Shown here piece by piece: positions 13,309 to 26,201 of a DNA stretch of 32,573 nt. The position numbers were made by a program, and so were the translations under genes. Origin of the DNA: Flavobacteriaceae bacterium (lineage in GTDB: Bacteria > Bacteroidota > Bacteroidia > Flavobacteriales > Flavobacteriaceae); NCBI GenBank assembly GCA_021648195.1, contig JAKITG010000004.1:1-32573 (forward strand). Reading direction: 5' to 3'. Position 1 is the stretch's first letter. Each line of letters begins with the position of its first letter. The notes under the pieces were generated by a model. It did no database searches. It saw only the letters and a program-made list of their open reading frames with translations, and was not told the origin of the DNA.

Positions 13309-13339
13309 AAAAAAGGCTTGTCGTGAAGACAAGCCTTTT
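13309..13339 (-). terminator. Rho-independent terminator of the trp attenuator
   Basis: Minus strand AAAAGGCTTGTC-TTCAC-GACAAGCCTTTTTT: 12-bp perfect stem followed by a T-run. Confidence 0.9.
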
Positions 13340-13369
13340 GATATTATAATATACAAGGTACTACTTCAC
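13323..13369 (-). promoter_or_regulatory. Predicted antiterminator of the trp attenuator
   Basis: GTGAAGTAGTACCTT (13355-13369, overlapping the leader stop) pairs with AAGGCTTGTCTTCAC (13323-13337) via GUGAAG:CUUCAC and CCUU:AAGG, disrupting the terminator left arm. Confidence 0.7.
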
Positions 13370-13422
13370 AAATTTATTTTTTGTAAAGACCACCACCAAG
13401 TATTTAATTTTTGTATTTTCAT
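13366..13422 (-). CDS. trpL: trp operon leader peptide MKIQKLNTWWWSLQKINL
   Basis: ATG AAA ATA CAA AAA TTA AAT ACT TGG TGG TGG TCT TTA CAA AAA ATA AAT TTG TGA; three consecutive Trp codons (13390-13398), immediately upstream of antiterminator/terminator and trpE. Confidence 0.88.
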   Translation of the reverse strand: MKIQKLNTWWWSLQKINL

Positions 13423-13433
13423 ATTTATGTCAG

Positions 13434-13463
13434 CAAATTTATAAAAAAAAATTAATTATCAAA
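13434..13463 (-). promoter_or_regulatory. trp operon promoter (Bacteroidota type)
   Basis: Minus strand TTTG (13460-13463) - 18 bp - TAAATTTG (13434-13441), matching TTG...TAnnTTTG. Confidence 0.65.
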
Positions 13464-19159: not shown

Positions 19160-19711
19160 CTATTCTTTTACAATAATAATAGGAACTTTCACTCTAGTCG
19201 TATCCCAAGCTAAAACCATATCAACACGCTTCCCTTTGCTCTTAAAACCTATTGAAAAAATTTCAATGGGTTCGGATTTACTTACTTTTGCTTTGACTCT
19301 GGCAACATCAAATTGTTTTTTATATTTAAACGCCCCCCATGCATCTATACTTGAACTCAAAATAAGTGTCCATTCTTTTTCTCCAGGAATAGCAAATAAT
19401 ACATAAGTTCCTGCTTTTACTTTTTTTTCACCAAAAATAACATCTTTATAAAACCTTATTTCTGTTGCTTCATTGGCACCAACACGCCAAACTTTATTAT
19501 ATGGAATTAATGATCCAAAAATATCTCTTCCTTTTTTTTGTGGCCTTCCATAAAGAACCTTTATAACTGGAGGTGAAATTTTATTAGCACGGAAATAAAC
19601 TATATCATGTGGACTTTTATCTATTTCATTAAAATTTTGAGCATTACTTGACAGGCTTAAAAAAAATGAAAGAACAAAGAATAATATGGTTTGAAAATAT
19701 ATATTTTTCAT
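19160..19711 (-). CDS. DUF2911-like secreted protein (paralogue A)
   Basis: 183 aa; signal peptide; KVLYGRPQKKGRDIFG..VWRVGANEATEIRFYKDV..VKAGTYVLFAIPGEKEWTLIL. Confidence 0.8.
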   Translation of the reverse strand: MKNIYFQTILFFVLSFFLSLSSNAQNFNEIDKSPHDIVYFRANKISPPVIKVLYGRPQKKGRDIFGSLIPYNKVWRVGANEATEIRFYKDVIFGEKKVKAGTYVLFAIPGEKEWTLILSSSIDAWGAFKYKKQFDVARVKAKVSKSEPIEIFSIGFKSKGKRVDMVLAWDTTRVKVPIIIVKE

Positions 19712-19862: not shown

Positions 19863-19920
19863 ACTTCAAATTTCCTTTAGATTCCCTTTAGATTCTACTT
19901 AGATTCTATTTTTATATTTG
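19863..19920 (+). promoter_or_regulatory. Promoter/operator: four tandem 11-bp repeats, 6-bp gap, -7 TATATTTG
   Basis: ACTTCAAATTT CCTTTAGATTC CCTTTAGATTC TACTTAGATTC (19863-19906), gap 19907-19912, TATATTTG 19913-19920. Confidence 0.8.
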
Positions 19921-19960: not shown

Positions 19961-20254
19961 ATGAAAAAGCTTATTTATTTATTAATGATTGGAGCATTTA
20001 GTTTAACTAGTACAACTATTTTTGCTCAAGAGGTAAAAGAAGCCCAAGAAACCGTTCAAGACAAAGTTGAAGTTCAATTAAGTGACTTACCAGAGGCTGT
20101 CACAAAAGCTTTAGGCGAAAACTTTGCTGGATATACTGCTGAAAAAGCTTACAAAATTATGCATAATGAAAAAGAAATTTATTACGTTTACATGGTAAAA
20201 GATGATGAATCTATTAGAGTTATTATTGATGCTGATGGTAATATACAAGAGTAA
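19961..20254 (+). CDS. Small secreted PepSY-like protein
   Basis: 97 aa; signal peptide MKKLIYLLMIGAFSLTSTTIFAQ; LPEAVTKALGENFAGYTAEKAYKIMHNEKEIYYVYMVKDDESIRVIIDADGNI resembles PepSY-like domains. Confidence 0.75.
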   Translation: MKKLIYLLMIGAFSLTSTTIFAQEVKEAQETVQDKVEVQLSDLPEAVTKALGENFAGYTAEKAYKIMHNEKEIYYVYMVKDDESIRVIIDADGNIQE

Positions 20255-20360: not shown

Positions 20361-20909
20361 TCAAATTCTATTACAAGTTTGCAACGGAATATTTACTCGT
20401 GTTGTATCCCAAGCTAAAACCATATATGTATTTTTCAACTTATGCTTAAATGCTATTGAAAAAATTTCTAATTCTTTAGCCTTTTTGGCAGAAACTTTTA
20501 TTCTAACAACATCTTTAGTTTCATCATAAAAAGATGTTCCCCATGTATCTACATTGCTATTTAAAATAATTGTCCATTCTTTTTCTCCAGGAATAGTATG
20601 TAATATATAGGTGCCTGCTTTTACAACCTTATTTCCAAATCTCACATCTTCATAAAATTTAACTTCAGTTGCTTCATTAGCTCCTGTTCTCCAAATTTTA
20701 CCATACGGAACTTGTTCACCAAACACTTCTTCACCATCCTTTTTCGGTCTTCCATAGACTACTTTTACCAATGGTTCTTGTATTTTATTTTGACGCAAAT
20801 AAGTAATGTCTGTTGGTGTTTTATCTATGTTATTAAATCTTTGAGAATACAATTGATTCTGAGAAATAAAGACATAAAAAAAAACAGTGATAAAACAAAC
20901 TTTTTTCAT
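20361..20909 (-). CDS. DUF2911-like secreted protein (paralogue B)
   Basis: 182 aa; KVVYGRPKKDGEEVFG..IWRTGANEATEVKFYEDV..VKAGTYILHTIPGEKEWTIIL; closely similar to 19160-19711. Confidence 0.8.
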   Translation of the reverse strand: MKKVCFITVFFYVFISQNQLYSQRFNNIDKTPTDITYLRQNKIQEPLVKVVYGRPKKDGEEVFGEQVPYGKIWRTGANEATEVKFYEDVRFGNKVVKAGTYILHTIPGEKEWTIILNSNVDTWGTSFYDETKDVVRIKVSAKKAKELEIFSIAFKHKLKNTYMVLAWDTTRVNIPLQTCNRI

Positions 20910-21481: not shown

Positions 21482-21643
21482 TATATTTGCATTTGAACTC
21501 ACTCAGAGAATTAACATTATACTGACTCGTACAATTTTAAAATGAGTATAGAAACATTAAAAATGTAATTACCAATTATAAAAAAATATTATTTTTATTT
21601 GAGTTGACAAAAGCTCTTCTTTAACTTTTAAGAAGGGCTTTTT
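21482..21643 (+). ncRNA. Candidate small RNA: -7 TATATTTG to terminator
   Basis: TATATTTG (21482-21489); AAAAGCTCTTCTT-loop-AAGAAGGGCTTTTT (21609-21643); no convincing ORF between. Confidence 0.4.
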
Positions 21644-21711: not shown

Positions 21712-22389
21712 ATGAAAATTCTAATTGTAGAAGATGAAATAGAACTACTTAACTCCATGAGTAGTTTCTTGCAAAAAGGAGATTTTGTATGCGAAACATC
21801 ATCAACTTTTTTTGAAGCCGAAGATAAATTCATTTCCTATAATTATGACGTTATCATATTAGATATAAATTTACCTGATGGAAATGGCTTGGATCTTTTA
21901 AAACAAATTAAAAAAACCAAACCAGAAACTGGTGTTCTAATAGTTTCTGCAAAAGACTCATTAGATGATAAATTAAAAGGATTGGATTTAGGAGCAGATG
22001 ACTATATTACTAAACCTTTTCATTTAGCCGAATTAAACTCAAGAGTAAATTCCATCATTAGACGAAGAAAATTTGAAGGAAATGAGAAAATCACCTTCAA
22101 TGAAATTGAAATAAATCCTGATGCAAAAACGGTAATAGCAAATCAAAAAATAATAGAATTAACCAAAAAAGAGTATTATTTACTTTTATATTTCATTACC
22201 AATAAAAACAGAGTTTTAACAAAAGAAGCTATTGCCGAACATTTATGGGGAGATAATATTGATTTGGTTGATAATTTCGACTTTATTTATACTCATATGA
22301 GAAATTTAAGAAAAAAAATAAAGGAAACTGGCGCTAGTGATTATTTAAAAACTATTTATGGTCTTGGCTATAAATTTAGCGACCAATGA
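21712..22389 (+). CDS. OmpR/PhoB-family response regulator
   Basis: 225 aa; MKILIVEDEIELL, DVIILDINLPDGNGLDLL, LDLGADDYITKPFHLAEL receiver; winged-helix C-terminus LTKKEYYLLLYF..YIKTIYGLGYKF-type ending. Confidence 0.95.
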   Translation: MKILIVEDEIELLNSMSSFLQKGDFVCETSSTFFEAEDKFISYNYDVIILDINLPDGNGLDLLKQIKKTKPETGVLIVSAKDSLDDKLKGLDLGADDYITKPFHLAELNSRVNSIIRRRKFEGNEKITFNEIEINPDAKTVIANQKIIELTKKEYYLLLYFITNKNRVLTKEAIAEHLWGDNIDLVDNFDFIYTHMRNLRKKIKETGASDYLKTIYGLGYKFSDQ

Positions 22390-23633
22390 GGTTAATTCAA
22401 AAATCAAAACAAACTTATATAATTTATTCAATAATAATTTTTATTGTTTCTAGTATTGTCATTTTCTTTACTTTAAAAAATGTTTTTACAGAAAAACAAG
22501 ATGAAAGACTAAATTTTCACAAAGAACTTATTGCTAAAAAAATAAAATACGACTACCCTTTGCCCATTTTTGAAGTCGATGATTTTGAAAGTAAAACTCA
22601 CATAAAAGACACTTTATATTATAAAGATACTACATTTTTACATATTGTAAATGGTGTAGAAGTACGCGAAAGATATAGACAACTTACCTCCTATGAGACC
22701 TTACATGGCAAAACCTATAAAATAATAACGCGAGATTCTCAAGTTAAAAATGAAGATTTTATTTTAGTAATTACAATATCAGTTGCTATTGTTATTTTTT
22801 TATTAATTTTAACTATATTTCTTGCAAATACAATCGTTTTAAAAAATGCTTTGCATCCATTTTATGAAAACTTAGAAATTTTAAAAAACTTTTCTGTAGA
22901 AAACAATCAGCCTATTTTCTTACAAGAATCAGAAATTGATGAATTTCAAGAATTAAACTCTTCCTTAATAAAATTAACAAACAAAATTAATTCTGATTTT
23001 AATAATCTAAAAGAGTTTACAGAAAATGCTTCACACGAAATGCAAACTCCATTGGCAATCATGCAATCAAAATCTGAATTACTAATGCAATCAGAAGGCT
23101 TAAACAGCTCACAGAAAAAACAAATAAAATCTATTTATTTAGCCACGCAACGTTTATCTAAGCTCAATAAAACTCTACTTTTACTTTCTAAAATTGAAAA
23201 TCAGCAGTTTAGTGAAAAAGAAGATATTTCAATTAACAAAACCATTGACAGACAACTTGAAATTTTTGAAGATTTCATAGACAATAAAAAAATTAAAATA
23301 ACTAAAAAATATACTGAAAATGTAATAAAACCTACTAATTCAATGCTCTTTGATATGGTAATTTCTAATTTAATAAGCAATGCCATTAAACACAACTTCA
23401 AAGGAGGAAATATTAACATCACAACCTCTAATGACTTTATTACTTTTTCCAATTCTGGAGAAGCACTCAAGCTCTCTTCGAAATCTTTATTTGAAAGATT
23501 TAAAAAAGAAAGTAACTCATCAGACTCTTTCGGACTAGGTCTTGCTATTGTAAAAAAAGTTTGCAATCTGAATGATTGGAAAATAGAGCATAATTACATT
23601 GAAAATCAACATAATTTTTCTATCTATTTTTAA
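22386..23633 (+). CDS. Sensor histidine kinase, partner of the upstream regulator
   Basis: 415 aa; two TM segments; ENASHEMQTPLAIMQSKSELL (H-box), NLISNAIKHN (N-box), FGLGLAIVKKV (G-box); 4-nt overlap with the regulator gene. Confidence 0.94.
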   Translation: MRLIQKSKQTYIIYSIIIFIVSSIVIFFTLKNVFTEKQDERLNFHKELIAKKIKYDYPLPIFEVDDFESKTHIKDTLYYKDTTFLHIVNGVEVRERYRQLTSYETLHGKTYKIITRDSQVKNEDFILVITISVAIVIFLLILTIFLANTIVLKNALHPFYENLEILKNFSVENNQPIFLQESEIDEFQELNSSLIKLTNKINSDFNNLKEFTENASHEMQTPLAIMQSKSELLMQSEGLNSSQKKQIKSIYLATQRLSKLNKTLLLLSKIENQQFSEKEDISINKTIDRQLEIFEDFIDNKKIKITKKYTENVIKPTNSMLFDMVISNLISNAIKHNFKGGNINITTSNDFITFSNSGEALKLSSKSLFERFKKESNSSDSFGLGLAIVKKVCNLNDWKIEHNYIENQHNFSIYF

Positions 23634-23670
23634 TAAAAATTAAGTATTCATAAACAAAAATTTACAACGA

Positions 23671-23706
23671 ACTTCAGATTTACTTTAGATTTTATAAATA
23701 TATTTA
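23671..23706 (+). promoter_or_regulatory. Operator/promoter A: two 11-bp repeats, 6-bp gap, TATATTTA
   Basis: ACTTCAGATTT ACTTTAGATTT (23671-23692), gap 23693-23698, TATATTTA 23699-23706. Confidence 0.75.
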
Positions 23707-23710
23707 CGGT

Positions 23711-23792
23711 ATTCTAAATTATGTTAACAACATCTATTTGAATACTTTAATTTGCGTAAATAAGCCTATTATGACGCTCATAATGGGCTTTT
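23711..23792 (+). ncRNA. Candidate small RNA A (about 80 nt)
   Basis: Between promoter A and terminator AAGCCTATTATGA-CGC-TCATAATGGGCTT (23762-23790) plus TT; no credible ORF. Confidence 0.55.
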
Positions 23793-23819
23793 AAAAACTT
23801 TTTAAAAAAACTAAGTGAA

Positions 23820-23855
23820 ACTTCAGAATTCCTTTAGAATTACAAATTAAATTTA
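23820..23855 (+). promoter_or_regulatory. Operator/promoter B: two 11-bp repeats, 6-bp gap, TAAATTTA
   Basis: ACTTCAGAATT CCTTTAGAATT (23820-23841), gap 23842-23847, TAAATTTA 23848-23855. Confidence 0.75.
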
Positions 23856-23859
23856 CCTT

Positions 23860-24056
23860 CGTTAGTTACAGTTCTATTCAAAATATATTTTATATTTAGA
23901 ATACACTATAAATTAGCAAAAAAGTTTTTTTAAAATATTAAACTGAGGGGAATAATATTTTTATTAAAATTAACATTCTGCAAATAAATTTATTAAGCTA
24001 TTTTCGTTTGCAATAAGTAAAAAGCCCATTCAATCATGTTGAAATGGGCTTTTTTT
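23860..24056 (+). ncRNA. Candidate small RNA B (about 195 nt)
   Basis: Between promoter B and terminator AAAGCCCATTCAA...TTGAAATGGGCTTTTTTT (24021-24056); no credible ORF. Confidence 0.55.
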
Positions 24057-24217
24057 ATTGCCTTATCTTATCCTAAATAAGTTAACTTATATTTAAAAAA
24101 ATCAGGCAAACACAAATCAGCAAAAAACCCAAGAGTTATTTCATTTTTTAAATTAAAATGTTGATAACTTACCCACTTAAATACAACAAAAAACATCCTT
24201 AAAAGCGACTGTTTCAT

Positions 24218-24225
24218 TATATTTG
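24218..24225 (+). promoter_or_regulatory. Putative gyrB -7 element TATATTTG
   Basis: TAnnTTTG match about 40 nt upstream of the gyrB ATG. Confidence 0.5.
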
Positions 24226-24233
24226 TGCGTTAA

Positions 24234-26201
<1,968 letters not shown>

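Follow-up and report, generated by a model that had tools for sequence, protein, structure and literature searches.

The interval between a sensor histidine kinase gene and gyrB in this marine Flavobacteriaceae genome of the genus Lutimonas very probably encodes a real small RNA, B, an intact member of a previously undescribed RNA family that is absent from Rfam, and the adjacent two-component system probably switches it on. We analyzed the whole stretch of 32,573 nucleotides (the window; Table 1), in which two tandem units lie between the kinase gene, ending at 23633, and gyrB, starting at 24264. A first-pass annotation had read both units as candidate small RNAs. The reading is supported for B, which falls in a conserved, covarying family; the upstream unit, A, has no core and is probably a copy in decay, not a second functional small RNA.

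Table 1. Features of the kinase–gyrB locus and related elements in the window
Feature	Position	Strand	Basis or remark
Further operator array	19864–19907	+	four repeats at 11-nt spacing, then TATATTTG box
PepSY-like small secreted protein, putative regulator target	19961–20254	+	label by eye; homologous to outgroup post-kinase gene
Response regulator, OmpR/PhoB type	21712–22389	+	Pfam Response_reg and Trans_reg_C
Sensor histidine kinase	22386–23633	+	Pfam HisKA/HATPase; NCBIfam PorY family
Operator A, CTTCAGA-N4-CTTTAGA	23672–23689	+	pattern search
-7 box A, TATATTTA	23699–23706	+	9 nt past operator A
Transcript A (predicted)	23711–23793	+	core-less derivative; operator joined to 3' end as in unit 2 of G002
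Hairpin closing A, short T tract (TTTT)	23762–23790	+	
Operator B, CTTCAGA-N4-CTTTAGA	23821–23838	+	pattern search
-7 box B, TAAATTTA	23848–23855	+	9 nt past operator B
Small RNA B, about 197 nt, intact family member	23860–24056	+	BLAST, model R1, folding
Core stem-loop of B	23923–23971	+	covariation; single-sequence folds
Conserved loop GAGGGGAA, putative site of pairing or binding	23945–23952	+	
Second hairpin of B, GCAAAU..GUUUGC	23980–24011	+	loop UUAAGC (23993–23998)
Intrinsic terminator of B	24019–24056	+	12-bp perfect arms and T tract

The two units share a 38-nt operator/promoter repeat (23670–23707 and 23819–23856) with 79% identity between the copies, and the pattern CTTCAGANTTNCTTTAGAWTT, at up to 3 mismatches, occurred 4 times in the window against 0.14 expected, namely at operators A and B and as two overlapping matches at 19864–19895. 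The proposal of tandem units with one operator type was thus borne out. Judged by its sequence, the operator is a direct repeat of the PmrA/CiaR type, placed exactly 9 nt from a Bacteroidota -7 box; the known PmrA/BasR site is a similar direct repeat. The arrangement CTTYAGA-N4-CTTYAGA, 9 nt and -7 box was present in most units of the family, and 48 of the 58 sites listed for 22 intervals, some of them overlapping secondary matches, had the operator, the 9-nt spacing and a -7-like box. Since the flavobacterial sigma-A box TAnnTTTG spans -12 to -5 (PMC9723704), the -7 boxes predict transcription starts at 23711 and 23860, in agreement with those first annotated.

The module also recurs in front of envelope genes. 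When we searched 15 genomes for it with up to two mismatches, it was found upstream of an OmpA-family lipoprotein, a DUF4382 lipoprotein, a beta-helix protein and a short ORF without an assigned role, while reversed-pattern controls gave 0–3 matches per genome. Within the window, operator and -7 box also precede the gene of the PepSY-like secreted protein, and two less closely related genera carry the module both 5' of the regulator gene and 3' of the kinase gene, ahead of envelope-type genes. The response regulator has DrrD and PmrA/BasR as its nearest solved full-length relatives (PDB search). These recurrences favor the first-pass view of control by an envelope two-component system as the best reading of the sequences, with the adjacent regulator presumably binding the operator directly. 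The kinase scores 411.9 bits against the NCBIfam PorY family (NF052314; cut-off 350) and in this respect resembles that of PorXY (type IX secretion), but its partner here is a DNA-binding OmpR-type protein and not PorX. The gene order DUF2911-DUF2911-regulator-kinase-gyrB is conserved in the Lutimonas genomes with long enough contigs. The two DUF2911 genes adjoining the two-component system (19160–19711 and 20361–20909, both - strand) are paired in all genomes of the genus with enough contig. Upstream of the regulator, 21490–21643 (+) may be a further short transcript, marked by a TATATTTG box and, at 21609–21642, by a hairpin resembling a terminator; this hairpin was left out, as its counterpart was found only in G007 among the genomes compared.

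For B itself, the predicted fold was more stable than those of all shuffled sequences (z -3.7), and BLAST gave 74–82% to its closest relatives. Indeed, the DNA of the interval matched all 21 other genomes of the genus, with a best match of 82% over about 144 nt, mostly in the body of B. As the annotation had held, there is no credible ORF: none of at least 20 aa occurs in 23640–24060. Rfam 15 had no match in the interval at the gathering score, and at E ≤ 10 the top score, 27.3 bits, stayed below the cut-off of 59. The only Rfam match in the whole window lies elsewhere, a Bacteroidete trp leader RNA (RF01692) at 13328–13442 (-), with 50.7 bits, slightly above its cut-off. The related 3' ends seen at first reading were confirmed, with AATGGGCTTTT arms common to both units. 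Each unit does end in a terminator-like hairpin as annotated, but the hairpin of A is followed by four Ts only, and neither unit was called by the terminator-prediction rule, the loop of B exceeding the length that the rule allows.

A covariance search in relatives, the check that had been named for this interval, found the RNA in 22/22 Lutimonas genomes and in 0/38 others of the relatives set. The model used, R1, was built from 28 of the units that it then recovers, among them B, which it matches at 23915–24017. The family also occurs in the sister genus (G182, G356 and G377), and among 301 genomes of the taxonomic family G182 was the sole further convincing match to the model; weak R1 matches in G192 and G307 were set aside, as they lie off the locus and have no operator. 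A tight pattern scan of 84,980 species gave 19 stretches, of which 18 are at the Lutimonas locus, including the named species Lutimonas halocynthiae and L. saemankumensis, and one in Acinetobacter was taken as chance; none was found in viral contigs scanned with the same pattern. The units always sit between this kinase and gyrB, mostly in 2–4 tandem copies, and usually consist, in this order, of the operator, the -7 box, a variable 5' part, (C/T)TGAGGGGAA, GCAAAT..AAATATTAAGCTATTTT..ATTTGC and a terminator. An own operator is usual and most units have their own terminator, while some have no recognizable operator, terminator or second hairpin.

The cores were located by a search for GAGGG(G/A)A, which leaves out units that lost the core, such as A, so that the presence of GAGGGG in 52 of the 53 cores is partly true by definition. 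Not given by that definition are the occurrence of at least one core in every genome of the genus and the nearly fixed T and AAT at its flanks. Throughout the family, the covarying stem presents the loop GAGGGGAA, and the second hairpin the loop UUAAGC. The loop CUGAGGGGA is invariant in the 28 aligned units, which were selected for CTGAGGGG. In most units, single-sequence folding puts the core into a long hairpin whose tip is the G-rich loop. When the structure was applied to the 28-sequence alignment, 84.5% of the cells were paired, against 40–50% when it was slid, and both-side changes were seen in 51 cells, compared with 24.8 ± 3.7 after shuffling; because the structure had been drawn up by hand from the folds, this count leans somewhat towards them. 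Pairs with a change on both sides numbered 10, not more than in shuffles (8.7), so the covariation draws its weight from the cell counts and from the control with slid structures. RNAalifold on a MAFFT alignment found four pairs only, because the stems vary in length. Family, structure, operator/promoter geometry, synteny, copy number and duplication are shown by the sequences themselves. With a conserved, structured, non-coding and terminator-ended RNA and, in most units, its own promoter with an operator at activating distance to which the adjacent regulator would bind, the family is most aptly classed as new within a known functional kind, the two-component-activated small RNA genes.

Unit A departs from this architecture. 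It is 83 nt long without the GAGGGG core, against about 240 nt for first units elsewhere, and R1 gave no significant match to it on the + strand, while its folding has z -3.85. At the 3' end, A can be aligned with the last part of unit 2 in G002; pairwise alignment with other units was strong for G002 and G012 and weak or absent for several others. On this uneven support, A is likely a deletion derivative that kept the operator and terminator hairpin and lost the core.

Duplication of the units, also part of the first reading, is supported by the unit tree, in which the gyrB-proximal units including B form one clade (95/84; 99% of bootstraps), and by a perfect 284-bp tandem copy in G182 of the sister genus, which gives two identical copies. 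The divergent bodies described there turned out to be mostly loss, A being without the core. A possible source of the units lies in the PepSY-like gene, whose protein in the window had no Pfam or NCBIfam match at E ≤ 0.001. In two outgroup genera (g132 and g230), the post-kinase slot holds an operator-driven PepSY gene together with operator-driven non-coding units. In G335 (g132), the slot before gyrB combines a PepSY gene driven by an operator, a truncated PepSY with an operator of its own and, likewise behind an operator, a non-coding unit; the 3' part of this unit repeats 44 nt of the PepSY 3' UTR at 95%, and the sequence around the last operator resembles the promoters of several gyrB-proximal Lutimonas units. 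In G254 (g230), a non-coding operator unit is followed by the operator-driven PepSY gene. The post-kinase non-coding units of these two genomes (L241 in G335, L246 in G254) have their own terminators and no GAGGGG core. The PepSY gene was found in G000, G008, G335 and G254, not in 12 other genomes searched, including the near-complete Lutimonas genomes G004, G012 and G014, nor was it detected in two RNA-bearing genomes of the sister genus. Together these arrangements suggest that RNA units may have replaced the protein gene in the post-kinase slot. We tentatively consider that an operator-driven PepSY-like gene was duplicated in tandem next to the kinase that controls it and that the family arose when the coding part was lost, although this is rather doubtful. 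Outside the promoter, the Lutimonas RNA bodies had no clear homology to the PepSY units. If it is true, the slot passed from a protein to an RNA output of one two-component system, with G335 as an intermediate stage, and the locus may record a protein-gene slot turning into an RNA-gene slot.

As for the mode of action, we infer transcription, activation by the adjacent regulator and antisense action, and we regard the following explanation as likely overall. The kinase–gyrB interval would be an array of small RNA genes, each with its own promoter, which the OmpR-type regulator would activate by binding the tandem CTTYAGA half-sites directly 5' of the -7 box. The B RNA would end at its terminator and present the loop GAGGGGAA on a long, sequence-variable stem and UUAAGC on the second hairpin. 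Pairing of the G-rich loop with C-rich stretches in envelope-protein mRNAs, the most likely, still putative mode, would make the small RNA a repressing arm of the envelope system beside the lipoproteins which that system would activate; A would be the deletion derivative, with promoter and terminator hairpin and no core. The pairing is the weakest step. The exact loop complement TTCCCCTCA was not enriched over its reversed control, and the loop-seed search gave no convincing target set: matches in start regions were few and mostly not conserved across species. One seed complement, located 13 nt inside a gene, is shared by the close relatives G014 and G018, and two matches touch the start codon of single, different genes. 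Duplex energies between the loop and the regulon leaders were not exceptional. The recurrent TTCCCCTCA sites fall in the 3' UTRs of two genes, just past the stop codon and ahead of a hairpin resembling a terminator, with three genomes for each gene (L175, L186 and L228; L176, L207 and L226).

A strict loop on a free stem would fit a binding site as well as a pairing site, and the RNA might act by binding a protein through the G-rich loop, as a Csr/Rsm-like sponge or with another RNA-binding protein, instead of pairing with mRNA. The invariant GGGGA in the apical loop, the freely varying stem sequence, the multiple copies and the two-component control would suit such a role. However, each RNA has a single such loop, and CsrA was found in 0/5 genomes, three of them near complete, by a search that recovers it in E. 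coli, B. subtilis and T. maritima; we judge this mode unlikely, though an RNA-binding protein other than CsrA might still be the partner.

That the units are 3'-UTR elements of the kinase, 5'-UTR elements of gyrB or an attenuator, and not free small RNAs, is quite improbable. They do lie between co-directional genes and the terminator of A is weak, but the units, present 2–4 times, finish with a terminator and in most cases have an operator and -7 box of their own, and gyrB has its own -7 box (TATATTTG, 24218–24225), conserved in relatives, downstream of the terminator of B. Equally, the series of intact, truncated and non-coding units in G335 and the decayed A could indicate that duplicated operator-PepSY genes left the units behind as non-functional remains; such remains may be their origin, but would not keep the core loop and second hairpin with compensatory changes in 22/22 genomes, which makes their being remains and nothing more very improbable. 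A small peptide encoded by the units is extremely improbable, since the likeness of GAGGGGAATG to a ribosome-binding site with a start codon is limited to some copies, its ATG varying between units (AATA, AATT and AACA), and the interval in the window has no 20-aa ORF.

Among known systems, the proposed array of regulator-activated small RNAs would work most like the CiaR csRNAs of streptococci, in which one OmpR-family regulator activates several related small RNAs, each ending in a terminator; its direct repeats are TTTAAG-N5-TTTAAG, and 10 nt separate the second of them from the -10 box (PMC3091779). Here, CTTYAG-N5-CTTYAG is followed after 10 nt by the -7 box, in parallel to that spacing. 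Unlike the csRNAs, the units belong to another phylum, directly follow the gene of their own kinase and, in place of a motif complementary to SD/AUG, have the conserved loops GAGGGGAA and UUAAGC, as judged by inspection. The likeness is one of description, and membership in that family is not claimed. OmrA/OmrB and other envelope small RNAs of Enterobacterales are likewise tandem, related and under an OmpR-type envelope regulator. They depend on Hfq, whereas Hfq was found in 0/5 genomes here, three of them near complete, and there was no Rfam match. CsrB/RsmY/RsmZ share two-component control, GGA in hairpin loops and several copies, but they have several GGA loops, against one loop per unit here, and CsrA was not detected. 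Rfp18 of Flavobacterium psychrophilum, a conserved flavobacterial small RNA with a strong structure and predicted mRNA pairing, is similar by description in its strong structure, whereas two-component control, proposed here, is not mentioned for it in the available text (PMC9723704).

The mapping of regulatory RNAs in Bacteroidota is poor, and for this phylum our search of the published literature found no array of small RNAs under two-component control. If the proposed reading is true, the locus would provide a small RNA arm of envelope signaling without detectable Hfq or CsrA, and the clear operator, the clear conserved loop and the two named species make it directly testable. Finally, the region upstream of gyrB (24165–24230) contains a DnaA box-like TGTTGATAACTT and the TATATTTG -7 box, and the same elements were found in the intervals of relatives.
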